Below the pieces are notes generated by a model that was not told the origin of the DNA, did not search any database, and saw nothing but the letters and a program-made list of their open reading frames with translations. A program made the position numbers and the translations under genes. A DNA stretch of 64,000 nucleotides from Isoetes taiwanensis (taxonomy: Eukaryota; Streptophyta; Lycopodiopsida; Isoetales; Isoetaceae), in NCBI GenBank assembly GCA_021234155.1, contig JAJEKV010000005.1, positions 11,464,572 to 11,528,571 on the forward strand, given 5' to 3'. Within the stretch, counting starts at the first letter, position 1. Every line of letters starts with the position of its first letter. This document shows positions 5,035 through 28,621 of the stretch, one piece after another.

Positions 5035-5099
5035 CACTACAAGAAAGTAAGCAATCTAAGTCACTAGTTTCATCATTTATTTGCTGAAATTCACACTTT

Positions 5100-5745: not shown

Positions 5746-5759
5746 ATTAAGGCATTGAT

Positions 5760-8376
5760 TATTTCTATATATTATATTGCAAATAAAAATAATAAATACA
5801 AAAACTTTTGATTTATGAAACCAAAAAGTTATTGCACAAGCCAAAAAACTATATTAAGAAATTCAAATAATCCAAACAAATACGAACAAATCATTAGAAG
5901 GCACAATGAATTTATTAGATGGATTAGGAATTAAGTATACATATAAATAAATAGGCATACATGTTAAAGAAACACGTCCCCTACAATAAAAGATGCTCAT
6001 GTATTTTCTTGGCAAATTAATATCATGACATTCTTATTTACTAAGCAAGTTATAGTGATATGGATTTAGGTGCTTTCTCAAATAAGTTCAATTAATGTTC
6101 CTCAGCAAAGCAGTGGTCTCTAATAGAAAGTTTTAAAAGCATTAAATGTTGGCGCTCCTATTGAGTAGCTTGGCAAAGTGGCAAAAATTGGCCAATGTAG
6201 CACCTTGCAATAGCTCAGTTTGAAGTCTTTCATTTCTCTTTACCATCAAGTGCACAATTTGTTTGTTTTGTAGCCAAAAGAAGACGCCTTGCAAATTGAG
6301 GGCTTTTACACCCATATTTGATCCTAGTAAGTCTATACACATGAACATTTGGTGCAAGCAATAAGCTAAGACTATTGCAACCATAAAAACATCTTAAAAT
6401 CATGTTTGTAGCAATTACCACTGGTTGGTGAATCCGTACCATCATGTCGTTTCTCAAAAGAGTGGTCCGTGTTCACTCTGGAAGCACATGTCATGTCAGT
6501 TGTTCTGAGGAGGATGCATAGAATTGTAGTGGATGAATGAGACAAGGAATGGATTACGGAGGAGGGTTTCTGTGAGAGAGAAGCTTATGTGAAATGATAA
6601 AAATTTCCCCATACCAGGCTTCTTAACTCTTAGCTGAGAACACCAATGCCTGCTATGTTAAATCTTGACGCGCAGTGGCAAACCCAATATCCATCAAAGC
6701 TTCAGTATCTAGCATAGTAATCCATTTTGTGAAAAAGGATTAAGACATGTGAATCAAAATCCAGAATTGCTAATTTTAAGAGGAATTCTTCATCTGTGGT
6801 GTTTCTGTATGAGCTTCTGTAAATACCTTAAGCTTCTAGCTTTTAGAAAAGAACTCTAATGCCTCCTGATGCCTGCTATGCCATATCTTGTTGTGCAGTG
6901 ATGAAACTCTAGTTCCATGAAAACTTAATAACCAGATCATTCTGCCAACAAGCCATGTCACAGAATTAGCTCCTCTAAAACCAGAACCAGGGTTTTCCAC
7001 TATCGTTGCAGCCTCACTCCACTGTCCTAGTTTCGTAGAGCATCTTTCTTCTGCAAACCCTCCAATCCCTCCGTGGTTGCCCTGCAGAAACCATGCCAGA
7101 CGCCCCTGCCTGTGACACTGGGTAAAGCAATTCCTGATAGTTGAAAAACCTTCACTTAGAAGATCCAAACTAAAATATAAGAAGGCCACACATCTTCAAA
7201 AAAGCAAAGCTTCTTGAAAGTAGTAGTAGAAGAAACTTCCTAATGAAATTCAAACCCACAGAAGAATTGCTTCTGCCAAATTTGAAGAAATTCAAATCCT
7301 ATAGAGAAAAACAAATCAAAACCCCCAATTCAGCACGAGAATTCCTTTTTCCAAATTTGGAAGAATTTGAATCCTAAAGGAAAAAACAAATCCAAAGCCC
7401 TGATTCAAACTCGCCGAACAATGTGATGCAATCCTTAATTTAAACTATTTCAAACTGGCAGAAGCAATTCCTGCGGAGGATGGGTGCAACCTCCTGCAGA
7501 TTCGGCTAGCTCCAAAAGCGCAAAACCTCCATGCGTACAAGCTCCTTGCTTTTCAGACATGTCTAATTCTAGGTGCTCCAAATCGGACACCTACAACCAT
7601 CAAACATTTGGAAAGAAAAAGTTTTGTCTGACAATACATGTCATTAAAAAAAAGAAAAACCCAACAAAAGTGAAAGGAAAACCTACTTAATACTTCTAGG
7701 CCTAGGGTGTCAATACGCCTGCATAAGTTTTAGAGCTTTTTGTTAATGGTTTAGACCCATGTATTTCCTTTACATTATACTTTGATATAATCTTTATTGA
7801 TGTGCAGGGCTCGTGAAGTGCATTTTAGGGTTCTTTAGAAGCGGGTTGAATTCCTTTGTGTGGCTATGACTTGCAGGAGCTCCATGGCAACGTCCTCTCT
7901 TCCACTACTGGGTCGAAACAGGACGTCCTGGCTTGGGTTCAATTTTGCTATCCTTCTGTGCTTGCCACGTCTACAACTGTGTATTTTTGTTGCTTTCTAA
8001 TGGTTGGCATATCAATGGTCTTTTTTAATTTTTCATGTAGCAATTTGGATGGGTTTGTAGTGATTAGTTAGGGTTAGTACACTCTGTGCAATAAGACCGC
8101 CAAATCATATCAAAACCATATTAAAAAGTGTAAATATTCGAAAGAAACCCCCTATTATTATGCTACATATTCACAGCCAATTGCTTTATGCTCATGAAGC
8201 ACTAAAAGGAAGCATTTTATGTTCTAGATAATTGAACATGTCCATATAAATGTAAACGTAGTGCTTCAGCTTTTAGAAGAGCTTACAAGCTACATGGACA
8301 ACAGCCCTGTAACCTTTGCAACTTTAGCACATATAAAACAATATGGCAATCATGTAGGTACTATTACTGCATGTAG
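5760..8376. other. CACTA 1 interior without recognisable gene
   Basis: Several open frames of 60-117 codons occur, for example 6836-7189 on the minus strand and 7856-8071 on the plus strand. None carries a motif I recognise. They may be captured host fragments: the 6836-7189 frame contains a Gly-rich stretch (QGNHGGIGGFAEER) that reads like real protein. I make no assignment. Confidence 0.35.
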
Positions 8377-8381
8377 GTATC

Positions 8382-8840
8382 ATGTGGGCAAATGGACAAC
8401 ATTTTTTAGTCACGCACACTGATCAAAGTAGAGTTACATTTGATAGTGGTATTGCAGCATGCTTTGAGCAAAAAGATCAAGCTTCTGCCAGAGACAATCA
8501 ATCGCTAGAAAGTGATGTCAATTATGTTGGTCAAATAACAGATATTATTAAGTGTATTTTCACTCCTTCAAAATCAATTTATTGAAGATAACGTGGTTTA
8601 AAGCATGTTACTGAGGGAAAAACTGCACAATGAGATAATATCCATCGGGTTTTTATGAGGTTAATTCTACTAAATTTTTAAGAGAAATGGATGAGTCGTT
8701 TGTTTGTCCTAGACAAGTTGAACAGGTTTTCTTCTAGAAAAATCAGGTGGATCGTGGTTCATGCAACACCTAGATCTCGTTACATGATCGATCCTTCTAC
8801 TTTGCATATGGGCTTGGCATCTTCTGTGACCAATCCAATT
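8382..8840 (+). pseudogene. Decayed TNP2 C-terminal fragment (DUF4216-like)
   Basis: The frame at 8382-8585 and the following broken frames match the C-terminal part of the TNP2 gene in the neighbouring CACTA (24698-25171). Shared features include WANGQH/WAYGNH, FEQKxQAS, NYVGQITDII, SGFYxxxST and PxQVEQVFF. In TNP2 families this corresponds to the DUF4216-type region that follows the transposase core. Stops and shifts appear after 8585 and again around 8738. The upstream catalytic part is absent, consistent with an internally deleted derivative of an autonomous CACTA. Confidence 0.8.
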
Positions 8841-9559
8841 GTTTTACTTGAGGGAATTGATGTTGTACAAGATGATATCAATCAAATGGTAGATGATTAA
8901 GTAGAGGATCATGATTCGAGCGAGGATTGCAGCATTAAAATCTCGTTTGTCTACTAATAGAGACATCAAATAATAATATTTTAGATTATGATGATGTTGA
9001 AAATGAAGAGATTGGTAATGAGGCCCCACATTTACTACATCTACAGCTTGGTGATGATGAACATGATATAAGAGATGAAGTGGCACTTGGAATCACTTCA
9101 GCTTGGATATTGCACATGATATAAGAGGTGAAGTGGCACTTAGAAATTTGCCCTAATAGAACCTTTTTCTTTCTTCTTCTAATAATATGATTTTGTGTAC
9201 TTTGTCTATGGGAGTTTGAAGAAGATAGTGCCATTACAAATGATATTACAATTATCATAAGCATTAACACGTCTATTATCATTACTAAAATTACAACAAG
9301 TATTGATAGTAAGAGTGATGTACGTCATGATATTATCCATGATGCTATTATCGACACATATAGCGTCATATGCTAGCACTTAGCACAGATATAATATTGT
9401 CAATATGTGATACTATAAATGAAGCTATGTGTGATACTGTAACTCGCATAGGCTATAACACTTATATTATTATTAACATCATCATTGGAGTAATAAATGA
9501 TGGTAAAGTTGATGCAATATATGATATTATTCATGACACTATTAGTAACATGTATATCA

Positions 9560-10066
9560 CCCAACACACAACAACCAACACATAACAACCATCGATATTA
9601 ACAACCAACACATAACTACCATTGACATTAATTAACACAACCATTGGGTCCAACACATTTAAATTAAAATCCCCCTTAAACCCCCTTTGGTTTGGGTGCA
9701 TATTCACACGGGGGGGTGACTCTGGGCAACGAGAGCTGTTGGATAGGCATATTCACCCCTTATTTCTTAATCTACACCATGCGTAAAGTTCCTCGTTTGT
9801 GGGGTATACAAGTACAAAATTTGCTATACTGTATAACAAAATTCGCAAAATACTATAAGATTTCAAGCGGAATACTATATAGTGTTGATTTCGTACGTGT
9901 GAAATACAATTATGAGGGCTCTCGCTGCCCTACGTCACCCCCCGTGTGAATATGCACCCAAACCAAAGGGGGTTTAAGGGGGATTTTAATTTAAATGTGT
10001 TGGACCCAATGGTTGTGTTGGTTGTTAATATCGATGGTTGTTATGTGTTGGTTGTTATGTGTTGGG
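9560..10066. mobile_element. Foldback (long terminal inverted repeat) element
   Basis: The segment about 9560-9722 is the inverted complement of about 9934-10066. Both contain CCAACAC/CATAACAACC units, an ATCGATATTA core, CCATTGGGTCCAACACATTTAA and an AAACCCCCTTTGGTTTGGG run, in mirrored order. The left arm is about 25-30 bp longer because of an extra repeat unit. About 210 bp separate the arms. The shape is that of a foldback or MITE-like element inserted into CACTA 1. I could not define a target duplication. A C-rich run at 10089-10100 lies just outside. Confidence 0.75.
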
Positions 10067-11019
10067 GGATTTAATTTTTATATGTTGGGACGCCCCCCCC
10101 CCGATGTGACAAAACATTTAGAATTCAAACCAGAAAAAAACTAAAATTCTTTTGAGGCTTTCATCACCTGTAGCTTTTGAATTTCATCACAATAAAACAA
10201 ATAGAACATAAGTAAAGGTTACCATAAAGATAGAGCATATTGATCCCATTATTCTGAAAGTCATAAAGTTTGCAACACCCATACACAAACATTTTTCAAC
10301 TGGAATTTGACAGCAATATTTGGCCTCCATGGATTCTTGGGGTGAGAAACCAAAGTGGGAAACTTTTCTGCTTGTTAGCACAAGGATCTAGAAGCCTTGG
10401 AATTTGCTTAATAACTGCCTCAAAATCTAAAAATGCATAGTAATTTTTTGCAAGCTTCATTCGGAATGAGCCTTAAAACAATATCCAATAGCGCAATCCA
10501 TTAATCAGCTGGTAGGATGTGAAAGCCTACCAAACCCGGCCAAAAAATTGCTGTTTTAGCATAGATAACTTAATCAAACATATCCATATCATACACTATC
10601 AAAAAGATCTCGGAGAGAGCTTTCCAACGCAATAAAAATCATCTGAAACAGATCTGGATCAAAAGTTATGATAAGAAATGTGTTGCCAGTGGGGAAACTG
10701 CACTACATGCGCCCTTCAAGCCCTTCATGTGCCCATTATGCACCACACACACAAAAAGAGGGCTTTTGTTGTGAGCCATTAGTTGTTGACCATTATGCAC
10801 CACACGCACAAAAAAAGGGCTTTTGTTGTGAGCCATTGGTTGTTGACCATTGAAAAAAAAAGGGCTAAAATCAATGGCTCAGAAATGGTGCACTCTAGAT
10901 GTACGCATTAGTACATCCATTTAAATACATCACGAAATCATAGGAAAACCTTAGTGAAAAGCGTACAAAAATACAAAGAAAACCCCATGTTATTATGCTA
11001 CATATTGTCCTTAATTATT
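10067..11019. other. Right interior of CACTA 1, no gene
   Basis: No coding frame is recognisable. A phrase around 10978-11000 (TTATTATGCTACATATT) also occurs at 8156-8172, so part of this stretch is an internal repeat of the element. A 57-bp tandem duplication is listed separately. Confidence 0.4.
10733..10846. repeat. Two-copy tandem repeat, 57-bp period
   Basis: Copies begin at 10733 and 10790 with CCATTATGCACCACAC, then GGGCTTTTGTTGTGAGCC. Translated, the copies give near-identical peptides (GFCCEPLVVDH), but I regard the open frame as incidental. Confidence 0.85.
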
Positions 11020-11337
11020 GTTGACCATGTTTATGACGATGCTGATGATGTTATACATGATAGAATCTTGTCAATGGTAGTATCATTGTACCTCAAATAT
11101 CATTAATTATATCATTTAATACATTTTGAGATTTTAGGTGATATTAAAATGATAAAAAATGGCTCTCCGCTTGTAGTGAATGCAGGTAAAAATACTAGAC
11201 TAGCAGCCGCCATATAAGTTCGTCGAAGCACAAATATATTTTTAGTAACATTCCTGAAAATGAAACAATGCTACCTAGCATGACGAGAAGGCAGCATGGT
11301 TCTTAACTGGTTTTTACGTTATGTGGAATGCAAAGAA

Positions 11338-11433: not shown

Positions 11434-11453
11434 ACCCCTTGCGGCGGTCAAGA

Positions 11454-12205
11454 CACTACAAGAGAATAGGCGTTTATTGTCAGTTTTTTTGTCACTTTGT
11501 AGACTACTGCATTTTTCAGAGAACTGACAAAAATGTGACCATAAAAATGACAAAAATTGGTGACGATAGATCGTCAGTTTTTTGCCATTTTTTTTTGGCA
11601 ATTTTTTGACACATCATTTGTCATCTTTATAGCATTTTTTTGTCACTTTTTTGGGCATTTCTTTGACATCTATATTGTCATATTTTAGGCAAATTTTTGA
11701 CACCCTATTTGTCATCTTTGTAGCATTTTTTTGTCACTTCTTTGGGCAATTCTTTGACATCTATATTGTCATATCTTAGGTTGTTTTTTGACAATTTAGT
11801 GTCATCTAGAGTGTCATATTTTATATCTATTTTTGTCACTTTTTTGGCAATTCTTTGGCACCTACTGTGTCAATTTCATATGAGTTTTTGTCACTTTTTT
11901 GGCAAGTCTTTGGCACCTATTTTGTCACATTTTAAGTTGTCTTGGCACCTTTTTGACACCTATTTTAACATCTTTTAGGCCATGTTTGTCACTTTTTTGG
12001 CAATGTTTTGACATATATTTGGCCATATTCTAATTTATTTTTAGCATATTTTTGTCATCTATAAACATATTTGGGTAATTTTTTGTCATTTTTTCTAGCA
12101 AATCTTAGTCACATTTTTGACATATTTTAATTCATTTTTTTGACACATTATTATCGTCTATTTGGCACATGTGTTGTTTTCTTTTTTGACATTTTTTTAG
12201 CATTT
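11454..12205. repeat. Left subterminal repeat field of CACTA 2
   Basis: Many copies of TTTTTTGTCAC, TTTGACATCT, TTTGGCACCT and related units occur at intervals of about 15-40 bp. The core shared with the right end is TTGTCA. These are the likely binding sites for the TNPA-like protein; the binding role is inferred from known CACTA biology. Confidence 0.8.
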
Positions 12206-12254
12206 TGTCTGAGAAGAATACTGAACATGAATTCTTTATGAAAGATAGAAGCAA

Positions 12255-12355
12255 TACACATAGAAGCATAGTTCATAATGTCTCAAATGAACGATACACA
12301 TAGAAACATAGTTCATAATGTCTCATAGAAACGTAGAAGGAATAGTTCATAATGT
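12255..12355. repeat. Short imperfect tandem repeats
   Basis: Three copies of an ACACATAGAAxCATAGTTCATAATGTCT-type unit, the last shortened to its GTTCATAATGTCT end, precede the 3' end of the TNPA-like gene. Confidence 0.7.
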
Positions 12356-12425
12356 CTGGAAAGAACAATACACATGAATTGTTTACGAAGAAGTTTATGA
12401 CAAACCAAATAATAAAGATGTTTGA

Positions 12426-13893
12426 TTAAACACTATCAATTTCAACCTCCTCACTGTCAGCACTAGATGTACTATCTTCACTTCCAGTGCCAGTGCTAGA
12501 TCCATCGCTTGAACTTCCACTGCTTGATGATTTAGACATATCCAACTACATAGGAAAAAAAATAAGTTATATGGCTACAATATTAAAAGTTATAAACATG
12601 TACAACAACTTAGATAAAAACCTACATGCACATCGTCTTCATTCTCCTCACATGGTACTTGATCTGCAACAACTTTCCCCTTGATATCTACTGCTGGGAC
12701 CATGCCCTTACCAACATAATCCTGTGCCATGTGCTACAAGATAATTAAATAGAGTTAATGCTAACTAATATCCATGAATGTATATTTAAATTGTGATTCT
12801 TAAAATTGCAATTGTACCTTTGTTTTCGGAAATACACGTCCTTCATCACTCTCCGTTGGAGCCATTTCTTCCATCCTCCAATTTCCTTAATCTCGAAACT
12901 TGACTTTCTGGGAGTGGGATAACCTCCGAAGTAGGCATACTAAAAATTGCAAATCTGAGGAAGTTATAATTTGTATTTATAGCACTTGATTCTAAACAAA
13001 TAAGATATGATACTTACATAATTGGAGATGATTGATCTATCCCCACGGAGACCCATTGCATGGTCTCGTTTTTCTTTGAGATGCCGCCAACTTCTTCATG
13101 GGGTGCTCCACCGCCGCCAAGTCTAGAAATTTTTCGGTTTGCCTTCTTAATGCATCGAAGGTTTGGAAGTCAAACCTTTTCGCGCCTTTCGTCTTAGATA
13201 ATCCCTACCAATATAATCGAAGAAAATTAAAGCTCTAGATAAAAAAAAAAAAAAAGAATTTGGAAGGTCACATGTCTAACCTGTGATGATTCCATCTACG
13301 TCCCAGTTGTTTCAAGACATCCTTCTCATTAAAACCAAAGACCGAATTGATTCTTCAAGTCATTAATCGCGTCTTGCTTCGGGGCGCAACTTAACTTGTC
13401 GCCAGTTTAGATGTATCTCGTGGCAGTGGTCCAACATGTAACTGCTTGCAATGTCCATAAACTCTTTTCCATGAGCATCAGGATGAATCTTTCCACCACT
13501 AGACACACACACCTACAACGTAATATAAAAAACATTATATTAATCAACGAGATAGGAACAAACACTCAAAACAATTAAAATTGATGTACAATATACCTCA
13601 GTGTCCCCCAACTTCTTAAAGCTCATAGCACGAGAGTTTCCCGATGCCATCGATTCACTACCTTCTACACGTGCATTCTCTTGTGCCTTGGAAGTACCAC
13701 TACCAACGGAAGACCTTCTCCTTCTCTTGGATTTCTTCGATGATGATGCGCCTCCATTTGATAGTTTACGTGCCACTGCATCCTTTTGTTCCTCTGTCAA
13801 CATTGACAAGATTTTTGATAACATCTTAGCTGAAACAACACCTTTCTCCTTCCCCTTTCCATTGTCCTTTCCATTAACCATTTTTAACTGCAT
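12426..13893 (-). pseudogene. TNPA-like CACTA accessory protein gene, six exons
   Basis: Six exons fit GT..AG junctions: 13597-13893, 13281-13512, 13018-13204, 12818-12939, 12626-12733 and 12426-12545. The first, fifth and last keep phase exactly (99, 36 and 40 codons including stop). Exon 1 encodes a Lys/Arg-rich nuclear-signal-like run (SSKKSKRRRRSS). Exon 2 ends with VLKQLGRRWNHHR, exon 3 has FRRQTEK-like helix residues, exon 4 has IGGWKKWLQRRV, and the last is a Ser/Asp/Glu-rich acidic tail. Position, orientation opposite TNP2, and a basic, probably helical middle fit the TNPA/plant-transposase-associated proteins that bind subterminal repeats. Exons 2 and 3 contain stops or shifts, so the copy looks inactive or is miscalled. 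I assign the role from context more than from sequence. Confidence 0.6.
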
Positions 13894-14538
13894 ATAAACG
13901 ACTTACAAGTAAACAAGATATCTCGATGCACATTACCCAACAGAAAATAAAGAACTAAAACACTATTGGAAAAGGTTACTAGTTAACATAGACAACTTTA
14001 ATAAGTAAAATTATAAGTAAAGCAATTTCAACAAAAAGTTTTTCAAAGTACAATATAATAAAAGAAAATTATAACCGACCTTGATAGAGCTTGTTTAGGC
14101 AATGAAAAGGATGGAGGGGCCTTAAAGGTCTGCAACATAAACATAGTACCAGTCAACAACACAACATATTTCCACAGTTGTAAGCAAATGGCACCCATTG
14201 CATCAAAATGAATTAAGTTATTCGCCATAACATGGGAAAGTCAAGGACGTGATAAGATAACTAAAGCTGAAAGGTCAACAAATAAAAAATGGGCGGCAGT
14301 GCCCCGTTACAATATCATGCATTAATCCAAAAATCCTGCTGCACAGCTCCTTTTATTTTCCAAAAACTTGTTTATAAGTTAATAACTCGCTATACAATTG
14401 TAATTTTCGCCTTTAAAAAAGCAACTGAACTACTTCTACAATCAACAGAAAAGGCGATCTGTCATTTTAAGACATCCTATACACAAAACTTATTCCAAAG
14501 AATTTTCCGTGAGAATATGCACAAAACTTTCTGCGGTC
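13894..14538. other. CACTA 2 interior, no gene
   Basis: Probably the promoter side of the minus-strand TNPA-like gene and the 3' side of the PUB fragment. I see no further coding motif. Confidence 0.4.
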
Positions 14539-14985
14539 TCATATGCCCTCATGCTTTTCCAAGCAATCTTTATACGCATTTCTCAAGAACTTAAGCAAAT
14601 CCCCAGCCTTTTGCTTGGTTCTTGGATTGTATCCAATTTGCAAGAAGAAGAAGAGTTTGGCAAATATGCCTGCTTCTATCATTCTCTTCTTGATACCATC
14701 ATCTGGTGAATACTTGCATAGAGCCCATAATGTCCCAATCGCATACTCTGTTGCAGTGTCAGAAACCTTGAACAATCGAGCATGATCACACACTGCTGCT
14801 CTGCCTTCAGCGCATCCACAAATGCATTCTAGCAAAGCAACAAGGGAGATTCTTGGAATGGGGCCAGAGGTTCTTGAGTCAGAGGTTCTTGGAATGGGAG
14901 TTTTTTGTGATGTTTCAAAACTCTGGCCAATTCTACCCCCATTGCAGAATCTACCAAGGATTTGAAGAGGCTTCTCATAAATCAT
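14539..14985 (-). pseudogene. Captured PUB-type (U-box/ARM) E3 ligase fragment
   Basis: The minus-strand frame reads ALLECICGCAEGRAAVCDHA, then a VSDTATEYAIGTLWALCKYS helix pair, then MIEAGIFAKLFFFLQIG, PRTKQKAGDLLKFLR and a stop. This is the armadillo-repeat C-terminus of plant U-box E3 ubiquitin ligases of the PUB20-30 type (CAEGR..., SxxATExAxxxLWxLC, KLxLLLQxG, KTKxKAxDLLKxLR). The U-box itself is not present. Upstream sequence to about 15070 may contain more of the gene in a shifted frame. It lies wholly inside CACTA 2, so it is a transduplicated host fragment (Pack-CACTA style). The last ~100 codons are uninterrupted. Confidence 0.75.
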
Positions 14986-15450
14986 GTGGCTGCTTTCGGA
15001 GCGCCTCTGGGGAAAGCAACACTGCTACGAAGAGCTCACGGATCAGCATGCAATCGATTGAAGAGTTTGCTCATGAAATCAGGATGCGAGATGTGGGTTT
15101 TGGGACTCCGATGCAAAGAGCAGTGTGACCAATTGGTCCGAAGACCGAGGTACTGGTTTAAGAGGGCACAACAGGAGCGCAAGAATTCTTAGATCGAGCC
15201 CTTCTGGTCATGGTAACCTGTTGAAAAACCTTATTCGAAAGAATCCTGTCTGGTAAATTGCAGTATGCAAATTGAGCTATTCAGGCAGGCTAAGCCTTTG
15301 CTGCCGACCTATAAAATGACGAAGCCGAAACTATAAGGTGAATAGATTCTTCAGCGGACTACACAACACAGATTATCGGAGAAATAGAAAAGGCCCCTGA
15401 ATGTCCTGCTACTGCAGACACTAAAACTTTAAATAAAGGACCAAAGAAGA

Positions 15451-15678
15451 ATGGAACATTGCTACGAATCTGGACAGTCAAAGCATGCTTTCAGCCTGTA
15501 CCACAAAATGCAGGATTTTGCCCATTTTTTCTGCAAAAATGAGTTAGAATCTGGCCATGAATTAGAAGACTTACCGTGTTTTAAACAGATGGAACAAGAA
15601 GTTCGTCCTGATGCGTCCTGCTGCGTCCTGATGCAGGTACAAGAAGATTGTATTGCCCGGTTGGCTGCACCGTTGTAG
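15451..15678 (+). pseudogene. Possible PPR-protein fragment
   Basis: The plus frame includes ESGQSKHAFSLYHKMQD and FKQMEQEVRPDASCCVLM, which resemble two pentatricopeptide-repeat units (xxALxLYxxMQ and FxQMxxxxVRPDxxTxxxxL). The spacing is irregular and the opposite strand is also open, so this is weak. If real, it is a second captured host fragment. Confidence 0.3.
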
Positions 15679-15679
15679 A

Positions 15680-16726
15680 AAAAAATTGCCAAAAAAGGAA
15701 ACCAAATGCCGTTTGACACCTACCTCTTCTGCCGAAAACAATTCTTCTTTGCCAACAAGGCTTCATTCCGGAGGCGGGAGGCGGCATTCCTTTCCCTTGT
15801 TTCTTTCTCAGGTGAGTGAGCCAGGTGCTAAAGATTTTTTTTTCTTGATTTTTGTTGTTAGGTGGCGTTGTTTGAGTTATTTAGGCGGGAACAAAAAGAG
15901 TCAAATTCATGTATATTTTGACAAAAATGTGACGAAAATATAGTCACATATTTTTGTCACAAGACCATTACACCTTTGTAAAGTGGTTTTTGTAGGAAAT
16001 AAAAATACATCCACTATAATTTAGTTCTAACTAGCATGCATGTACACATTAGATTAAACAACATCATAATACATACTTGAAAGGCAAGTTGGGCCAACAT
16101 GGGATGTTAAATCTTATTTCAAAGGTCCTCCGTTCCGAAACTCATTGCTTGGGGTTATTATCAATGGGTCAAAGCTAATCAATCCATATACCCGGTTGTC
16201 CGTACTGTCGCATGAGTATTGATATTTATCATCCACCTAAACATGTGCTTATATCAGACACTTGATGTGTATCATAACGTGGTTAGAAAATACCATATGC
16301 AAGGAAACCAGAACATCCCATGGTTGATAATTTATCGTTGAAGACACATCTTGTTTGTCTATCCTTTCTATATGATAAATTTTTCAAACTCTCATTCCAA
16401 ATACAGTCTAAGTTTAGCAAATATTATATTTTAGGCACTTGGTTGTGTACGGCCTAGTCTTGTATTTTAAATTGACTATACTATTAGGATTGGCATCCAA
16501 TGTTTGGATGCATTCATTTTAGGCAGGTGTGGGAGAACTAAAACTCATCTAATTGTGAGGAAGGTTTTGTCACACATTCTTGTCATAAACTTGTAATTGA
16601 AGTTTCTACTACATAAATTTCTCTGTTTTTTTTTCCTAGGACATTGTTATCAATCTTAAAAATTGTTATTAGCACATGCAGTTATGCTTAAGGGGATGCT
16701 ATTGCTAACTTCTTTAATTTATGAAG
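15680..16726. other. CACTA 2 interior between captured fragments and SET-like gene
   Basis: No gene seen. A short inverted motif pair at 15918-15960 (GACAAAAATGTGAC ... GTCACATATTTTTGTCAC) repeats the subterminal TTTTTGTCAC core well inside the element. It may mark an old internal junction or an extra binding cluster. Confidence 0.4.
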
Positions 16727-18149
16727 ATGGCTTCTTCCTCAAGTGGAAAGACAAGCACTGCATCATCAAGCGAGTCAAGTGAGCGAAGTGCAGGGCCCTC
16801 AAGAAAAAATAGGATACGTCGTACTCGTCGAAAACAACGGTTAATTTAATTTTGTAATATTCTTATTTCCAGTACAACTACACCTTTTACAATTGCAATA
16901 TTGGTTAAATGCAGGATGGACTCTTCTTCTTCACATTCTAGTAGAGGTGCACGATCAGATAATGCAAGAGTCGATCCCATCCAAAGTCTATATCAATCTA
17001 AATGGCCTTGTTGGTGCTTGAAGTGTCGTGGTGCGAGAAAACTAGAGTACAGTGTCAGGGAAGATCATAAAATAAGCTTTGGATGGTGTGCAGATGCACC
17101 TCCTCCTGATTATTCTGAAAGACGAATGCGTCGAAAGGCCGATGAGGTACGTCTATAAAGTTTTTCTCTATCTTTGATTTTGGCAACATTAGAATTTGGA
17201 TAATCTTGCCAATCTTGCAGTATATAAGGGGCTTGCAACATAACTCACCAATTGCACCCGAGGATCAAATTGGATTTCCATCCACGTCCTCATCTACACC
17301 ACCTAGAATTCGGCTTCGTAGATGTCGTGAACAAGGTTCAAGTACCTCTTTCAGTGATGCAAAAGAAAAGGTAGTAGACACTAAACAAGTAAGAGGACGT
17401 ACAAGGGGGGAGTCTGCAACACTTTCAATTAAGGCCTAGTTTGGCACATATTCTCTTTCACATGTTAATGAGACTGATGGGGATTACCATACTTATATGC
17501 CAGACAGTCTTAAAAATGCAATTGTTCCATTTGATCGTAGGACATTTGGTTGTTGGGAAGGACAACTTCCACCAATGTTGGAGGAGTTCATCTATTGGGG
17601 ACGTCGATATATGATTGCACCATCTAGAAATATTCCTGAGGCAGGAAGAAGCTTATATATCTTAGAAAGTGTATGTGGTAGTCTTGAAAATCCAACAACT
17701 CTGATGGCATATGGAGGACCCACATATAGTTGGGGTGTTTGGATAAGATTGGCATCATTCATGCCTAGCATGTCTATGGTCTAGTAATGAATTGGTGCAG
17801 ACTGAATAAGCAAAAGGAACATGGAGAAGATGTGTCGATAGCTGACAAGATTTATATCAATGGTCGTCCTAGCGTTCATGGAGATATTGCTGGTCTTATT
17901 AACAGCTCACATGGTCATTTAGAGTTGTCAAATGCTATTTTTTAGGAGACGGATATACATGATTCTAATCATATGGCTGGACATGCTGGATTTTATGTGC
18001 GGGTTTGTGCTATTAAGAATTTGAGACCAGGGGATGAGATATTTATTGACTATAATTTTCGACGACCCATACCAACTCGAAGACGAAGGGAGCTAAACGG
18101 GGGGCCTCTCATTGTTCCATTAGAGAGGCCAAACAAAAAAGCCATGTGA
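16727..18149 (+). pseudogene. SET-domain-like gene carried by CACTA 2
   Basis: Exons 16727-16839, 16915-17146 and 17221-18149 join in phase (CG|G and GAG|TAT). The first encodes a Ser-rich start and an Arg-rich run. The second has WPCWCLKCRGARKLEYSVREDH, a Cys-pair/His motif that also resembles the CxC...H N-terminus of TNP2 proteins. The third contains APSRNIPEAGRSLYI and LMAYGGPTYSW, then INGRPSVHGDIAGLINSS and AIKNLRPGDEIFIDYNF. The order matches the two halves of a SET lysine-methyltransferase domain: N-terminal GxGrGLf, central GxxxrfiNhSC-like segment, C-terminal GEELtxDY. Breaks are TAG at 17437, a shift near 17760-17785 and TAG at 17943. The usual NHSC is NSSHG. SET assignment is by motif recall; methyltransferase activity is untested. 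Confidence 0.6.
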
Positions 18150-18486
18150 AATAAACTTTGTGACTTTAAAAAATTAGATACGATTCTTAAAAATTTTGTT
18201 CTTATTTTCTATTTACGTTAACTAACTACTATTTATTGCATACTACTAATATTTCATTTAATTTGGCAAAAACTACTATTTATTCTGTATTTTGTGATTG
18301 CATAATGTTTTGCTGCTCGAATATTGGTATACCAAGTTTTGTCAGTCTTACCAAATATTGCACTAATGTGGAAATAATTGCAGTTCGATGGAGAGTCCAC
18401 ATCAAGCGGCGAACCAACATCTGCCATGAGGAAGTCTTGGGTAAATTGGTCTAATTGAGACTATTAACAATTATTATGCTGTTATA
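18150..18486. other. Spacer between SET-like gene and TNP2
   Basis: An AT-rich stretch. A possible exon follows an acceptor near 18383 (FDGESTSSGEPTSAM...), perhaps the start of the TNP2 transcript. Confidence 0.35.
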
Positions 18487-18963
18487 GATGGAGAGAATGA
18501 TGATGCCAATCAAGAGGCCAATATTGAAGGTGATAAAGAAGATGCAAGTGTTCTCAAAGATGAGGCAGGCAAACCACTATATCCTGGGGCTAGGATGTCA
18601 CGTCTTGCAACATGCTTGCTAATTCTGAATCTTCAACACAAATTTGCATGGAGTAATAACAGTGTATCAGAGCTACTTAGGTATGTTATTTTTTTGAATG
18701 ATAAATTAGTTTCTTATGAAATCATTTATCATATGCAGCTTGCATCACACTTATTCCTCTTTTCCATGTAGCTTGCTAAGTAAAATACTACCTGCTGGTC
18801 ATTGTCTTCCCAATTCAAGAAGAGAAGCAAGGGAAATCTTGCGTGCATTAGGGTTGGAATATCACTGCATTCATGCTTGCCCAAATGATTGTGTATTGTA
18901 CCGGAATGCATATGCAACATTACATGAGTGCCCAAAATGCAAGGAGCCACGTTATAAGATGGA

Positions 18964-21900
18964 CTAGTAAACGTGTGCCCGGCGTTGCCGGGCTAACGTC
19001 GTTGATTCGAACTGCCCGGCGTGTGCCTGGCGTTGCCGTGCATAAGTAGGTGTGATTATCTAGAGTTTCATGTATTGGGGTTGGTATCCTTTTCACTCAT
19101 GTCAAAGAAGTTGTGGTTGTCTCTCTCAATATAACCTCTCTCTGTATCCGGTTCAAACAAATTATATTCTATAACCTATCGTAATGCTGGTTATAATGCT
19201 ATTCTTGACCTATGGTAGCGACTTATGCTTTGTCTTTTCATATAGGAAAAAATGGAGTAAAATAGAAAATAGCAAATTCTCATGTTTGCATCCAAAGAGT
19301 ATTATCCGTGCTAAGTCTTGTAAACGTTAAATCAAAAGCCCTAAGCCCTATTTGAGATGATGAACCCTAAATCCTAAACTAATGGGTGCAAGGTTTCAAA
19401 GATGTTTGTAGGATGGGCTGATGCCGAGAATCTTGAAATATGTGGAAGTTGGAATTGTTCTCAAGGATGTTGAGAACAATGTCAAAACAATGTCAAGAAG
19501 GAATGTTAAGGAGGGAGGACATGATATACTCCTATACTTGTATAAACATGTCTTACACATTTAAGTAAGAGGGAGGGAGGGAGGAGAGAGGAGCGCTACT
19601 CATAAATCTACACAATTATAAATCTACACAATTGAGAATTTGTTTTCAGATTATTGGCATGAATAAACTCTAGCTCTAAGGATAAATGCTTCAAATTAAG
19701 TCAAATACTTATGTAAGGCAGATTGTTGTGGGAAAGGTGGTTGTCATGGACAACAATTGGTCAATGTGTTTAGTTTTCAATTGTATAGGAGCATACATTA
19801 CTATTTCACCCTACATTTGTTGACTGAGTTCCTTATAGGATTTATTTGAATTTTAACATGCATGTATGGGAAGTGCTTGTGCTCTGAAGTTTAGAGTGAC
19901 TTCTTGTGCTCTGAAGCTTAGAGTGACTTCGTTGGCTCAAGTCCTTGTTGAGGATCTATATAATTAGACACCCATATCGACCTTGAATCTTAAGGGCATG
20001 AGTTGTCGAACCTTGATTATAAAAATTATCACAATCCATTCAACATATGACACGAAGGAAATCATTCAACTGATTTTACAATGAAGAGCACTTTTGAAGA
20101 ATTTAAAGATACTAAATTCAGTTTAACTATTGTTAGTGCATGCTCTTGCATGGCCAAATAAGTGAACAATTCATTTTCTTGGTAAATTGTCTATGGCATG
20201 CGCCCAATGTCAATGATAAGAAGAAACATAAGGTTATGGCTAGCCAAATAATGCTCATGTGAGCTCAGAGAATGAAAGGGGTTGTGCTCCAACGGGTGAG
20301 CAAGAGGGTTGTGCTCAAAGCGGATGCAATATGGGAGGCCGATATATGGTGTGTATCAAGATGGGCTTCGGGATTTACACCAATGCGTTGCTCGCTTCAA
20401 TCTCATTATCGACAATATATTATTGATTGTGGATCGAAAACTGCTCGGAATGTTCATCTACGCCACGATCTCACATATGACACATTTGCAACATTATCAA
20501 AGCTTGGCGATTCCTCAAGATCCACGGCTCGAATCTAAACTATTGCAGAATATTGTCATCCTTATTTGTTGTGACCACATACATCTATCTCTCCAATGGC
20601 ATTATCTCCTTGAGAAAATTGCAAATTTGGTCGTACCTTCTTTGTGTAGGGAAGAAAGGTCAAATCCTCCCCAGTAAGGAAAACAGATGCATTCCGTTTT
20701 AAGCGCAATGTAAAGGGGTCAATAATAGTCATCTTATGTTAACATATGCTAAATGATATATAAGCTGTTTTGAACAAAAGATAGACATGAAAATAATACC
20801 AAAATAAAAATGCATCTTTACGTGCGAACGAAAATGAAAACAACTGGGAGGCGTAAACTATTTGAAGGATCCGGTGAATAAGAAAGCAACCCAAGATCTA
20901 GACCAAAAAGATCTTATCATACTAACAACTTGAATCCAAGTTTCACAAAGCAACAAAATGCCACCAGAAAATGCCTTAGAAAAGAGGGTAAATAAATCTT
21001 ACCTTATATCGCTAGCTCAAAAGATCCGCTCCAAACCAACTGGCTGAAACTTTTATCGGCAGATCTAGTCTTGATCTCTTTCCATCACTGCCAGAACTTC
21101 AGAATATACCATGCGACTTAAAGTAACAACATAGTTTGAGAGTAGATCAAACTATAAATTAAAGCTTCCAAAACAAAGTTCAAAATGCACACATAACCTC
21201 TTTTTAACTCTGCGGCCGGGAATGACTCCTAGACAATACCTCTTTTAAATTAGGTGTTGGTCGCACACGAAGAAGAACGGCTATTGATAGCCCATTGATG
21301 TTTGAGAAAAAGGAGGGCGTTGCTAGCATGCAAGATCGCTTTTTGAATGCGAGCGAGGAAGGTGCCATAAGCGGCATGCAATACATGGGTTCAACATTTC
21401 GAATCCAAACAAATGTATTAGATGACATTGATATCTTACTCGTGCTCAGTGTCAACAGGAACTTGGAACCTGCAAAGAGAACCTGGCGAGTAAGAGTTTT
21501 TGATATTCATCTTCTTATTGAAGCCCATAAGGCCTAGGCGCATTAAAAGAGCAAGTAAATAACCTCTTGCACCAAAAACAAAGCGATTTGGATCTCAAAC
21601 CTAAGATAAAACTTACCTTGAATGGGCGGAGGATAGAAGCTAGAAACGGGGACATTCACCTTGCCCTATGCCATCACCAGAGTTTCTCCTACAATTGCCA
21701 TATTTCTTGCTCAAAAAAAGAAGGCAAACATTGGGCGTAAACAGGAGGAGGAAGGAGGAAAACCGCACTTTAGAAAACCTTGGATCGCCGAAGATTTAAG
21801 ATGCAACGGGCGGGGCAAGAATCATGAAGATTTTATATTTGGATGATGCTTACTCGTTAAAGAAACAAAACATGACATGGCTATCTCTTTGAAGAGTCCT

Positions 21901-22394
21901 ATAAACCGAAATCAGATCAGAGAAAGCTCGGATGCTTCACAAATTCTGCAAGCACAATTACTCCATAAATTTACCTAATGCAGTAGCAAAGCTTTAGGTG
22001 GGAAAACCATCTCAAATCGACAGCTCCTTCTTTACCATTCCAATTTGTGCCTCATGCTCCGGACCTCTACCTTGAAACATGCCGAATAGAAATGCCGCTA
22101 ATCGTAATGTAACGAAAATGTAACGCTTCTTTAAGAAAACGATTTTTGAATCAACTTCTCCACATCTTTATGCAAGCTGTCTCCGTGAAGCCAAAATCAT
22201 TGCGGTGAAGAGGACTTAAGAAACGCTTTGCATGAAAAAACGTTTTAGGGTTAGGCCAATATAAAACACTTTTAAGCTTACGCTCCCAAAAATAATTCCG
22301 GTGCCAAAATCACGCTTTTGGCCGGAAAAAGGAGTGTTACCGGCGACCGGAAAAAGGGAGACACCCCACCCCAAAAACATTTTAAATAAGTAGA
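18964..22394 (-). mobile_element. Helitron (minus strand), 3.4 kb, non-autonomous
   Basis: On the minus strand the element starts TCTACTTATTT after a host A (complement of T at 22395) and ends CTAG before a host T (complement of A at 18963). A 6-bp GC stem with a 3-nt loop (18978-18992, CCCGGC-GTT-GCCGGG) sits 10 nt inside the CTAG. These are the canonical Helitron features: 5' TC, 3' hairpin plus CTRR, insertion between A and T, and no target duplication. Removing it joins ...TATAAGATGGA to TATGAAGAAG and gives an uninterrupted TNP2 frame, which fixes both ends. I see no Rep/helicase protein. Plus-strand open frames at 20309-20677 and 21292-21537 look protein-like but are unrecognised and may be captured cargo. 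Confidence 0.92.
18978..18992 (-). other. Helitron 3'-terminal hairpin
   Basis: A perfect 6-bp stem (CCCGGC/GCCGGG) with loop GTT, 10 nt from the terminal CTAG. A degenerate second copy of the GCCCGGCGTG/TGGCGTTGCCG motif lies at about 19012-19042. Confidence 0.9.
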
Positions 22395-25189
22395 TATGAA
22401 GAAGAAAAATGTTCCGAGAAAAGTTTTGCGACATCTACCCATTATTCCCCGTTTGCAATACATGTTCCGTTCTCCATCTTTGTCAGCATTAATGGATTTT
22501 CATGTGACACATCGAAGTAATGATGGAATTTTAAGAATCCCAGCGGATGGAGAAGCTATGAAACATATAGAAGATAAGTGGCAGGTATTTAAGGATGAAC
22601 CACGCAATTTACGTCTTGCTATTGGAATGGATGGGATTTGTCCATTTGGAACATTGTCATCAAAATATAGCGTGTGGCCTATAGTTGTGATCAACTACAA
22701 CATTCCACCATGGATGGCAACTAAAGCTGGACATTTGATGTTGGCACTACTTGTTCCAGGTTTGTGCATTATTAAATTTCAATATCTCATTTTCGAAAAT
22801 CTTTTATAATATATATTATTACCAGGGAAGCATCAAGTAAAGAACATGGATGTGTACATGGAGCCACTCATAGAAGAGTTAGAGATGTTATGGAAAGGCA
22901 TCCAAATGTATGACATTGTAAGGACGCCACATCAGTTCACTTTACATGCGATATGTTGCTTTACGACACACGATTATCCTGGTTTTGGTGTTGCTTCTGG
23001 TATGTATATGCTAAAATACCGATGCTCTGCAAAATTTCTAACCCATTATCTAATTATAGGCTTGCAAACAAGTGGAATGAATGGTTGCCCATCATGTGGA
23101 ACTTCTTTGAGTTGCTACCGCTCCAAACACCTTAACAAGCAAATATATCGTGGACACAAAAAGTACCTACCATCTAGCCATCCTATGCGAGGAGCAAATT
23201 CTATTGAGAAACCAATCATTATGACACCCAAGGATTGGTTAGAAATATGGAATATGGCTCGTGAGTCACAAGGTGCATTGAATGATGATGAGGTCATACC
23301 ACCACCAGGCATGAAACGTTTATCAATTTTTCACCGCCTTGAGTATTGGAAAGAATTAAAACTTGTGCATCTACTAGATCCCATGCATATCTTCAAGAAT
23401 GTTGGGCAATCACTCTGGAAGCATTTGTGGGGGATTGGGAGAAGTTAAGTGTCGAAGGATTTCTGAGATTGTAATATAATCGTACTTTGTGGCCTATTGA
23501 AGAGGAGGGCAAAGCCATTAGGTTGCCCTGTGCACCTTGGGTTCTAAGCAAAATCTGAGAAGTTACAAGTAACCAATGTTCTATCCAAAATGCGCACCCC
23601 CACTGGCTATAGCGCTTCACTCCGTAAAGCCTTCACAAAAGATGGTGATCTAAGCGGGTTGAAGTCCCATGATTGGCATAAATTCATACAGGTATTGATT
23701 CTATATTAAATATCTTATGGCATATTTTTTTAATTATGTGTGTTTGCTGCATTCTAGCACATTCTTCCATGTGCAATTGAGAATTGTCTTACAAGTAACA
23801 TTAATTGCTATTATATATCGACTTGGAAAGTTTGCAAGGTATGACACAAAACGCTTTTTAGTGGTATATTTTCAATTATGTTGTTAACAAATAGCAAGTT
23901 TGTATGTAGATGGGTGTCAATGAAAGAGATTAGCTTAGACGATATTTCAACAATGGAGGTTGAGATAGCTGAACTACTGTGCATGATGGAGCGAGAGCTC
24001 CCTACAAGTTTCTTTGACCTTCAAGTACACTTATTAATTCATCTACCAGAAGAGATTCGACTTGTTGGACCAGCTCCAAGTCGGTGGATGTTCTTTTTAG
24101 AACGGTACATGAAAATTTTGAAAGGTTACGTTCGGCAAATGGCTGGGCTCGAGGGGTTCTATGGTCGAGGGTCATTTGCTTCATGAAACATTGTTCTTTC
24201 TAAATGAAGCCACACTTTCAATACACAAAAAGATGCCCCAAAGGTTTGGAATGACGAGGAGGATAAGGAAGTAGCGTAAGAGGTTCTACAAGGTCATGGA
24301 GTGCTTAGCATAAATTGAATGAGGAAATGTTTGAAGAAATAACTAAGTTTGTATCACGTATCGAAAGTCTTGAAATGTGGAGGGAGAGATACAAATGTGC
24401 TAGAGAAGAAAAGAGAGGCACGAGAAGAGATTTTGCACATAATAGTATACATCATGGCGAAAACGTATTCTATATCGAGTCTTTGGAAGAATTGTTCGAG
24501 GATATGACTCGTGATTGGTTGCTTGAAGCAATGGAAGATGCACGAGATAAAGGAGAGGATGTTCCAAAGGATGACTTCAACATTGCACTTGGATGTGTTA
24601 AAAAGGTACGTTTTTCTATTTATTGTCAATGTATGTTACATGCATATGATTCATTTTCGTATCCTTCTAAAATGCGTGAGCTCGTTTTCACAATTCAATG
24701 TGGGCTTATGGAAACCATCTTCGGACTATAGAGGTCGACAAAGGTCGCTTGACATATGACTGTGGAATTGCTTCTCAATTTGAACAAAAAAGTCAAGCCA
24801 GTCAACGTGATCGACAACCTATTACCAGTGACCTTAATTATGTTGGGCAAATTACTGATATTATTGATGTTGACTTCCGTTCATTTCATGTAACCATCTT
24901 GAGGGCAAAATGGTTCAAAGTTGTTTATAGAGGTAGAAATCAGACCATGAGATCACATCCTTCAGGTTTCTATCAAATTGATTCAACACAGGTTCTTGGA
25001 GAGATGAATGAACCTTTCGTTTACCCTAAACAAGTTGAACAGGTTTTCTTTTTTGAAAATCCTGTTAACCTAACATGGTGGATTGTAGTCCATGTTGTAC
25101 CCAGGCGCAGACGTCTGATTGATAGTACTACATTAGAGCCTGACAATGATGATGATCAAGAAGATGATTGATGATATCTTGACTTCTCG

Positions 25190-25887
25190 AATAATTTCTT
25201 ATGAGCTTCTTTAAAGTTAGTTTATTGGCACTTATTTGTCATCCTATTGTCACTTCAAAATCTATTTATTGTTATTTTATTGTCGGCATATTGACACTTT
25301 GATGTCAACTTATTGTCAATTTATATTCACTTTTTTGTCAACTTTTTCTCTCCCTCTTGTCACATTTGAGGCATTCTATTGGCACACTATTGACACATTT
25401 GTGCCACTTTTTCTCCAACATCTTTGTCAAATTTATGACATTTTATTGTCACACTATGGTCAAATTTATATCATTTCTTTGTCACTGCTTTTGTCATTCT
25501 AAAGTCAGTCTATTGACACATTTTTGGCACATGGTTTTGTCAACACTTTGTCAATCTATTGTCATAGTTGTGTCATCTGTTGCCACATTATAGTCAGACT
25601 TATAGCATTTGTTTGTCATTACTCTTGTCAGTATTAAGTCAATTTATTGTCAAATTTTTGACACATGGTTTTGTCAAAACCATATCATTCTATTGTCACA
25701 TTATAGTCACATTTGCACCATCCTTTTGTCACTTTCTTTTGTCACTGTTGCATCACTCTATTGTCACATTTAGTGTCATTTAGATTTCACTATTTTTGTC
25801 ATTTTTATTGTCACTTTTACATCAGTTTTTGGACATAATATTTTGGTGACAAAAAAAGTGACAATAAATCACTGTTCTCTTGTAGTG
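25190..25887. repeat. Right subterminal repeat field of CACTA 2
   Basis: Dense copies of TATTGTCAC, TTTTGTCA and TTTTTGGCACA-type units run from just after the TNP2 stop to the terminus, mirroring the left field. Their density (a TGTCA or TGACA core about every 15-25 bp) is striking. Confidence 0.82.
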
Positions 25888-26288
25888 AGAAAAGCACAGC
25901 GGCGATGGAGCTCCAACAATACAGGGTTTCTTTGTTTTTTTTGCCAAGAACACAGATTCGTTGGCTATGGACAGATTTTTTTCGCTAAGAACAGGGCGAT
26001 GGCACAGCCATTAGCTTGTTGCATCTTAATCCGGTGATCGATATGAGCTCCAATAAGCATGGACCTGAATCCGGCAACAAACCTGGAGGCTACGATGCAT
26101 CTGGAGCAACGGGATGCAGCAGGCCAGGTCAAGAATGGAGTGCGAGTTTCCATTCTCAGGTAGAATGTTTGCCACATGTCAACCTCTCATTTGCTAATAA
26201 ACAAGAATGCTCTCCCACTTTCCTTGACGTATAATGGTAATTATTAATATGCAGATGACACAAGTTAAACCAAGGCCTAGCTAATGTA
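25888..26288. other. Flank of CACTA 2, no gene
   Basis: No coding motif seen. Open frames on both strands (for example 26016-26234) lack recognisable features. Confidence 0.4.
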
Positions 26289-26988: not shown

Positions 26989-27715
26989 CCCGGGAAGTCT
27001 ATATAATTAATATGCAGAAACATGTTTATGCTTCCCGTTGTCAATTCGAAATTGCCAATCTAATCTTAATCTTGGATACAATCTTGTATAATTCTGGCGT
27101 GCTTGTCTGGTGGTAAGTCTCTAGGTCCTGGAGTCTATAACTCGAGCATGATGTGGGCTTTCAGATGCTAAAACCGTTGAACTTAGTTTCTTTTCATGGA
27201 TCAAAGACCCAACAACATAGACCTGTTACAGGATTTATTCATGAAAACGCGTTTCTATTCCAAGTCATACAGCCCGCAATAAACTGCTCTTTTCAATCCC
27301 TGTCGTCGTTTGCGTACATGGTGGATGGAATGAGATTCAATCAGGATTTTGGTTGAAGTATGTATTGATGAATCTATGCACGGTGAGCTACAAACCCAAT
27401 TCAACTAGAAAAGAGAAATCAGCAGTGAATGGTGGTACCAAGCCATAGCTAAGGAGAAGCGAAGGGGATGGAGATAGAGAGAGAATTTTCACACAGAAAT
27501 TTTTAAAGCCAGTGCTGCTGCCCCATAAAAGGAGGCTAGTTTCTACAATACTTGCAATTCATGTTCTAGATCTAACCATGTCGGTCCACCGACATTGCAT
27601 TGCACGTTCGTTCACATGACAAGCACGCCCCCTCAACTAAGTGTCAACGATCAATTTATATCAGAGTAAACACCTGTCACTATTATGCTATAAAGATGGA
27701 GAAGATCACAAACGC
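26989..27715. other. Upstream region of the GT31 gene
   Basis: Contains short open frames without motifs. A tRNA-like phrase near 27105-27150 (TGGTGGTAAG ... AACTCGAGC) could be the head of a SINE, but I could not confirm a B box. The promoter and 5' UTR of the GT31 gene presumably lie here. Confidence 0.35.
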
Positions 27716-28621
27716 ATGCACTCATTCATGCTCTTGCCTATGGCAATACGACCACAAAGTAGTGGAAACAAGCTTTTCCAATTTAGCAAGAGCAGAATTT
27801 TGCAAGGATTCATCTTTTTCTTCACATCCTCGGCCATTTTCTGTCTGAATTTCATCTTCCAATGGCAATCTCCATCAAAATTGCTCCTTCAGTCTCATCC
27901 CAAGCCACCACCCCTCAAGATCTTGATTGGAATCCTCACTACTTCTGCCAAGTTTGAGAGAAGAAGCCTTCTCAGGTTGGCCTACACTTTACAGCCTCCA
28001 CCAATTTCAGCTGATGTCTCAGTTCGGTTTGTTTTGGGAGAACCCAAAAGCAAGGAAGAAAGGGATCTGGTCAGGCTAGAAATATTGAGATATAATGACA
28101 TTCTTCAGCTTGATTGCAAGGAGAATATGAATGCAGGAAAGTCCTTCACTTATTTCTCAACAATACCCTCACTTGGCACAAGGTATGACTATGTGATGAA
28201 AGCAGATGACGATGCCTACATTAGGCTTGAGAATCTGGCACATTCCTTGCAACTACACCCCAGAGAAGATCTCTACTATGGCCTCCCATTACCCAATCCT
28301 TCCACTGGGTTCATGACAGGAGAAGGTTATGTTTTGTCTTGGGATCTGGTAGAATGGATATCTGAGTCTCCAATTCCTAGAAATATGAGCTCTGGAAAGG
28401 AGGATCTGCTCCCAAAGCTTTGGTTCAACCAAGGCAACAAGGCGAAGCATCGGAGCAACATGAAGCACTTGTTCTATGATCATCCTGCTTATGGTGGCCA
28501 ATTTGCCCATGATTTTATTCCTGAAACAATTCTGATTCATCAGTTGAAGAGTTTGGATCGATGGATGGATGTCCTGTCCTACTTCGAGCTCAATGACAAA
28601 AGAAATGAAACTAGAGCATGA
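27716..28621 (+). CDS. GT31 family glycosyltransferase (beta-1,3-galactosyltransferase-like)
   Basis: A single uninterrupted frame of about 300 codons. GT31 enzymes transfer galactose or related sugars from UDP-sugars in the Golgi, in plants onto arabinogalactan proteins and N-glycans; the exact acceptor here is unknown. A signal anchor (ILQGFIFFFTSSAIFCLNFIF, about residues 28-48) follows a short basic cytoplasmic tail, giving a type II topology. The catalytic domain has LKILIGILT, SVRFVLGE, YNDILQLD, the DxD-type metal site VMKADDDAYIRLENL, GEGYVLSWDLVEWI, the acidic KEDLLPKLWF motif and the C-terminal FIPETILIHQLK seen in plant members. I chose the ATG at 27716 because it gives a normal-length tail; the frame is open to an ATG at 27641, which would add 25 residues. 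The length is somewhat short for GT31 but no motif is missing. Confidence 0.85.
   Translation: MHSFMLLPMAIRPQSSGNKLFQFSKSRILQGFIFFFTSSAIFCLNFIFQWQSPSKLLLQSHPKPPPLKILIGILTTSAKFERRSLLRLAYTLQPPPISADVSVRFVLGEPKSKEERDLVRLEILRYNDILQLDCKENMNAGKSFTYFSTIPSLGTRYDYVMKADDDAYIRLENLAHSLQLHPREDLYYGLPLPNPSTGFMTGEGYVLSWDLVEWISESPIPRNMSSGKEDLLPKLWFNQGNKAKHRSNMKHLFYDHPAYGGQFAHDFIPETILIHQLKSLDRWMDVLSYFELNDKRNETRA

Follow-up and report, generated by a model that had tools for sequence, protein, structure and literature searches.

A conserved methyltransferase-like gene beside the transposase suggests that CACTA elements of Isoetes taiwanensis may influence their own chromatin

Transposon-borne SET genes are already in print for other lineages. 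A gene for a SET histone methyltransferase is found in the HarbingerS and MuDR transposons of Phytophthora (Kojima and Jurka 2014, cited in PMC12730594); like the element described here, these are DNA transposons with a SET gene of their own, but they belong to other superfamilies and live in other hosts. SETMAR of anthropoid primates joins a SET domain to a DNA-binding domain that derives from a transposon and recognises the ends of the element (PMC8616336), a combination that resembles the one at this locus, where a finger exon would take the DNA-binding role. However, SETMAR is a single host gene in which the mariner transposase lies downstream of a host SET, whereas here the combination is carried and spread by a transposon. 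In Arabidopsis, the VANC protein of VANDAL (Mutator-like) elements modifies the epigenetic state of the element family that encodes it (PMC10398659, PMC13317346), an activity shown for VANC and proposed here for the SET protein of CACTA elements. VANC works through loss of DNA methylation, however, and is not described there as a SET protein. Together with Spm TnpA and MURA, it is among the plant transposon-encoded counters to silencing that have been described through DNA methylation (PMC10398659).

Within the CACTA superfamily, maize Spm/En has a single alternatively spliced unit that yields four transcripts and encodes both TNPA and TNPD; its TNPA switches a methylated promoter back on (PMC1636069). 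Spm/En is thus comparable to the present element as a CACTA transposon in which one unit gives several proteins and one product, TNPA, alters epigenetic state. To our knowledge, it has no SET domain. Other CACTA elements add a Peptidase_C48 or Transposase_24 domain to a core of TAD, Transposase_21, DUF4218 and DUF4216 (PMC8978399), which parallels the core plus added domain seen here; however, SET is not among the additions named, and the whole word "SET" does not occur in the main text of that paper, which also refers to other combinations, such as SANT, that it does not treat. Fungal transposons bearing TET/JBP dioxygenases, EnSpm families among them (PMC12730594), are likewise CACTA-like elements with a chromatin- or DNA-modifying enzyme, but the enzyme oxidises 5-methylcytosine and the hosts are fungi. 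Our literature search found no report of a SET-bearing CACTA element; its coverage was partial, most subscription journals and Repbase Reports lying outside it, and within that coverage SET in CACTA is seemingly new.

The gene considered here lies in a 64,000-nucleotide stretch of Isoetes taiwanensis contig JAJEKV010000005.1 (the window; Table 1). A preliminary description had placed it inside a 14.4-kb CACTA element, and the element ends bear this out. The terminal inverted repeats form a 42-nt pair, 88% complementary and of the CACTA...TAGTG type; the termini read CACTACAAGAGAA... at the left and ...TTCTCTTGTAGTG at the right, each flanked by AGA. Terminal inverted repeats, a 3-bp target site duplication and a PF02992 transposase, three features of CACTA (En/Spm) membership, are present. 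Pfam matches to PF02992 lie at about 22522-22761 and from 22816 (E 3.6e-28 and 5.9e-23), a DUF4216 match lies at about 24884-25087 (E 4.6e-7), and the TNP2 acceptor of this copy reads AATTGCAG^TTCGAT. The label "TNPA-like", given earlier to a neighbouring gene, was not confirmed; the minus-strand frame at 13540-13902 has no Pfam match. The TNP2 gene is interrupted by an insertion that we take to be Helitron-like from hallmarks of Helitrons, namely, on the minus strand, an A|T target, a 5' TC and a 3' hairpin GCCCGGCAACGCCGGGC followed by CTAG; the close relative L029 has the same TNP2 site without it. The CACTA element also holds a captured ARM-region fragment of a plant U-box (PUB) gene (14539-15024, minus strand; PF25598, E 1.4e-25). 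A second, probable CACTA element at 5035-11178 (CACTACAAG... / ...CTTGTAGTG, with AAT on both sides) stops 275 bp ahead of the 14.4-kb element, and a galactosyltransferase-like frame at 27641-28621 (PF01762, E 6.7e-15), just past the latter, is probably a host gene exon. Both the transposon content (TNP2, transposase-associated domain, DUF4216) and the genes (U-box ARM fragment, galactosyltransferase) have a plant character.

Table 1. Features of the CACTA element and its SET-domain gene, in window positions.
Feature	Position	Strand	Basis or remark
CACTA element	11454..25887	.	14,434 bp, from terminal inverted repeats and target site duplication
Left terminal inverted repeat	11454..11495	+	AGA target site duplication at 11451-11453
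Exon 1, start codon and basic stretch (RKNRIRRTRRKQ)	16727..16839	+	Sequence reading; tblastn relatives
Exon 2, Cys-rich finger (CxCxxC...H), counterpart of the transposase-associated domain	16915..17146	+	Phase-0 donor
Exon 3, SET-domain exon ending in its own stop codon	17221..18149	+	PF00856, 20.4 bits
TNP2 transposase region, broken	18384..25171	+	PF02992 and DUF4216 matches
Helitron-like insertion in the TNP2 gene	18964..22394	-	3,431 bp; outside the SET system
Right terminal inverted repeat	25846..25887	-	AGA target site duplication at 25888-25890

The three exons proposed earlier join in frame across GT/AG borders. Exon 1 has relatives by tblastn at L029 (92.5% identity over 40 amino acids, E 0.26) and L031 (78% over 18 amino acids, E 0.001). 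Exon 2 is 84-95% identical to its counterparts at L029-L031 and 47% identical to those at L032 and L033; its donor reads GATGAG^GTACGT (border 17146^), and the exon 3 acceptor reads TCTTGCAG^TATATA (border ^17221). The two premature in-frame stops and one frameshift that had been noted both fall in exon 3, and the gene in the window is a decayed copy. Stop-free relatives of exon 3 elsewhere in the genome are 93, 87 and 79% identical to it.

From the window copy alone, the claim of a SET domain is marginal. With X placed at the breaks, this copy matches PF00856 at E 6.9e-4, its 20.4 bits being just under the curated Pfam cut-off of 22.4 bits, and only over profile positions 43-105, the C-terminal part and half of the domain; it is filed here in the SET family together with its 93% identical open relative. 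The open relatives score 32.6, 29.5, 25.1, 24.5 and 22.2 bits, four of the five above the cut-off and the last, L033, just short of it, and P0001 scores 28.2 bits. All 14 members of a hand-chosen alignment (A3) match SET at E<=1 (best 1.1e-7), and all carry G[DE]E[LI]F[IV]xY, a GEELxxDY-type motif with its Tyr. When the profile was compared with six SET stretches that presumably belong to host genes of this genome, the probability was 84 over 60 columns, and HGN-INSS-GDELF-Y was paired with GN-INHS-EL-Y. Structural comparison was less informative. The single broken window protein found nothing among PDB sequences at E<=1, and a profile search gave 14 matches at E<=10, none significant (best E 0.062), with LegAS4-type, KMT2 and EZH2 SET domains among them; an AlphaFold2 model from a five-row alignment (P0001, P0002 and window pieces) had a mean pLDDT of 34, too low for a reliable fold. 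Taken together, the sequence comparisons support placing the gene in the SET family, as the preliminary description proposed.

Whether the protein would be an active enzyme is a separate matter. In all 14 members of A3, Ser replaces the His of the NHSC motif (NSS for NHS), so methyltransferase activity cannot be assumed, and on this ground we do not class the protein as a canonical SET lysine methyltransferase. A Cys-rich post-SET cluster was not visible in the same alignment. Both features would fit a catalytically dead SET fold kept as a scaffold or chromatin-binding module. However, A3 shows no variation at the Asn of the NHSC motif, at Gly, Glu and Phe of G[DE]E[LI]F or at the Tyr that follows, and PRDM9-type enzymes are active without NHSC. 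We hold a dead fold to be rather improbable, and methyltransferase activity to be fairly likely.

Counterparts of the gene, which the preliminary description had proposed to look for in related CACTA elements, are numerous in the same genome. In a search of 1.66 Gb, the window protein matched at least 132 stretches at E<=1e-3, the window copy included, with 127 of 1,283 first-look candidates scored, and the counts are lower bounds. Merging of neighbouring stretches leaves at least about 118 places, some copies being split into two or three stretches. At least 73 of the 132 stretches are stop-free, and at least 30 of these span 740 bp or more. Of the two outcomes named beforehand as speaking against the gene, namely no SET match and a single copy with no counterpart, neither occurred.

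We read 25 loci, 20 taken from a Pfam SET list and five from the window-protein search. A relative of the window gene is present in 18 of the 20 Pfam-list loci (L026 and L027 are without one), and a TNP2 gene follows on the same strand within 10 kb in 14 of these 18 and downstream in all five loci from the protein search, that is, in 19 of 23. No TNP2 match was found in the 10 kb read at L010, L018, L025 and L028, which may be deletion derivatives or domesticated genes; L010 and L018 keep 278-aa open frames. The relatives fall into at least five diverged groups (that of the window; L028/L032/L033; a 278-aa group with L009 and others; a 274-aa group with L020-L022; and L035/L043), with 30-61% SET identity between groups in the pairs compared. 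A reverse sample started from TNP2: 15 loci were hand-picked, mostly from the upper half of a list of at least 167 matches (150 of 2,311 candidates scored), and 3 kb upstream was read. SET is present at seven of them (L035, L038, L039, L043, L044, L046 and L048), several copies being broken, and was not found at the other eight by tblastn or a filter-off profile search of those 3 kb. Among the eight, the finger exon is retained at L034, the finger at L041, L042 and L047 belongs to a different lineage, and no finger exon was recognised at L036, L037, L040 and L045. These observations support the SET gene as a recurring component of CACTA elements in this genome. Outside it, a profile search of 3,989 candidates returned two proteins, which lie on three short contigs and are 83 and 82% identical to the 278-aa group. 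As single-sequence queries, a window-group protein found no relative among 1,194 candidates and a 274-aa-group protein none among 229; in viral contigs, 59 stretches fit a pattern and none was confirmed as a relative.

The Cys-rich second exon had been compared with the start of TNP2, and this comparison gains support from related groups, where the corresponding exon matches PF13963 (Transpos_assoc; cut-off 27.7 bits), albeit below the cut-off: L035 at E 2.8e-5 and 24.6 bits, the 278-aa group at E 0.024 and 15.3 bits. Among loci lacking SET, L034 matches at E 1.1e-4 and 22.8 bits and L041, above the cut-off, at E 5.4e-7 and 30.1 bits. In ordinary CACTA elements the Transpos_assoc domain is part of the transposase reading frame (PMC8978399). 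In every one of the five groups, one or more loci have a CxCxxC...H exon ahead of SET, and this exon appears to resemble the transposase-associated (TAD) finger.

The position of SET relative to this finger bears on how the two proteins are made. SET is located in the intron that separates the TAD-like exon from the TNP2 core, and the SET protein and the transposase therefore probably share N-terminal exons. At L034, 22 bp stand where the SET-bearing L021 has 994 bp holding SET, with flanks 79 and 81% identical, and L034 retains the finger exon, the TNP2 core and compatible phases. Positions 2097-2169 of L034, on the reverse complement, offer a natural SET-minus comparison. All 36 splice borders that could be placed are GT or AG at a codon boundary (phase 0); they were picked by eye in 15 sequences, some of which did not supply every border, and comprise 13 finger donors, 14 SET acceptors and nine TNP2 acceptors. 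Since all are in phase 0, the finger exon would be able to join either SET or TNP2 in frame. In the three window-group relatives L029, L030 and L031, the frame leading from the preceding stop into the TNP2 core contains no Met; this core must therefore receive an upstream coding exon. The SET exon closes with a stop ahead of the TNP2 exon, and no single protein would hold both SET and the full transposase, as a SETMAR-like fusion does. We consider it quite probable that one gene with two 3' endings is alternatively spliced into TAD-SET or TAD-transposase.

Several observations count against this model: eight of the 15 TNP2-anchored loci are without SET; the SET-bearing loci L020, L028, L039 and L046 yielded no finger-like exon; Pfam gives no match to the finger exons of the window's group or of the group closest to it; and the SET-less L041 type falls among the window-side groups on the TNP2 tree. 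SET could instead be an independent accessory gene with its own promoter. It does have its own stop codon, an in-frame Met is available in groups other than the window's and could start TNP2 separately, and four of 18 SET loci have no TNP2 in the stretch read. However, the finger exon that stands ahead of SET stands directly before the TNP2 core at L034, a TAD exon precedes TNP2 at the SET-less L041, and the Met is missing from the TNP2 core of the window group's relatives, all of which makes an independent gene doubtful.

Selection among the copies was proposed earlier as a further check, and dN/dS is indeed below one. Among 16 sequences picked for being open, 23 of the 120 pairs were retained (150 or more shared codons, dS >0.03, identity >0.6), and their SET dN/dS is 0.20-0.53. 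The upper limit of the 95% bootstrap interval stays below 1 for 21 of the 23; it does not for L010-L017 and L020-L022, whose members are nearly identical, and L021-L022 has an upper limit of 0.99. Five pairs have dS >1 and approach saturation, and pairs drawn from one group are not independent of each other. The SET gene is thus supported as kept under purifying selection, and a dN/dS below 1, together with the number of matching stretches, points to more than chance. TNP2 core pieces of 93-139 codons gave 0.06-0.41 in the pairs that yielded a value (11 of 12), with an upper bound above 1 in two, and the transposase looks more constrained than SET. Pairwise identities of SET and TNP2 are correlated (r 0.94, 11 loci, pairs not independent), which fits long co-inheritance better than repeated capture. 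On the TNP2 tree, two loci without SET, L034 and L037, cluster with L020-L022 (support 0.90), and a third, L036, clusters with L038 and L039; both placements suggest that SET was lost. The L041 type, also without SET, joins the window-side groups (support 0.97), so a further loss of SET or a second gain must be assumed.

We propose that a plant CACTA lineage gained a SET exon in the intron between the TAD finger exon of TNP2 and the transposase core, and that this exon was retained while the elements diversified. One pre-mRNA would have two splice outcomes: exon 1-TAD-SET, closed by the stop of the SET exon, and exon 1-TAD-transposase. The finger would be common to both proteins. From its place in the transposase we infer that this finger recognises the element; the same finger on both proteins would aim the SET protein at its own family. 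There, at the ends or promoters of family members, it would methylate lysines, most likely of histones and possibly of the transposase. The outcome we favour is anti-silencing, with the element kept open and transcribable, a state that VANC and Spm TnpA reach by different routes, since selection on an element-borne gene should favour spread; an effect in this direction is possible, though tentative. The broader core claim, that a shared-exon SET protein acts on its own family in either direction, has slightly better prospects than its negation. The fuller picture, a CACTA-encoded, self-addressed chromatin writer in which splicing puts an element-recognising finger on either SET or the transposase core, SETMAR-like and spread by a transposon through at least five groups, is plausible, if a shade less probable than not. 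What stood of the preliminary interpretation was membership of the SET family, recurrence in CACTA elements and purifying selection; the suggestion of a histone methyltransferase acting on the element's own chromatin is kept in conditional form.

The opposite effect is also conceivable. A self-limiting repressor would lay a silencing mark of the H3K9 or H3K27 type on the family, curbing copy number and damage to the host. A finger-SET protein without the transposase core could compete with the transposase for the element ends, elements without SET exist, and Spm TNPA represses its active, unmethylated promoter (PMC1636069). However, a trait that only lowered transposition should vanish from the copies that spread best, and the purifying selection in several groups would argue for a benefit to spreading copies, leaving self-limitation unlikely. 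The protein might also have a non-histone target, methylating lysines of the transposase or of a host factor and so controlling transposition. SET is encoded adjoining the transposase, probably in the same unit, and no sequence feature was found that ties the SET protein to histones; but histones are the substrate of most characterised nuclear SET enzymes, which makes this target less likely still. Finally, CACTA elements often carry captured host gene fragments, and this one does hold the U-box/ARM fragment, but a passenger fragment of a captured host gene is highly improbable for SET, because SET occupies one position across five or more diverged groups, keeps long open frames, has a dN/dS far below 1 and diverges together with TNP2. 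A single-copy or passenger pseudogene is ruled out by the many copies, the linkage to TNP2 and dN/dS.

Known plant transposon counters to silencing, such as VANC, are described through DNA methylation, and a SET protein of CACTA elements would differ from them. If the proposal of a SET protein with a shared finger is true, these elements would provide a histone modifier on the transposon side, maintained by selection and fitted with the same finger as the transposase, and they could serve as a natural model for the origin of gene fusions such as SETMAR. The presence of a conserved methyltransferase-like gene beside the transposase suggests that CACTA elements may influence their own chromatin.
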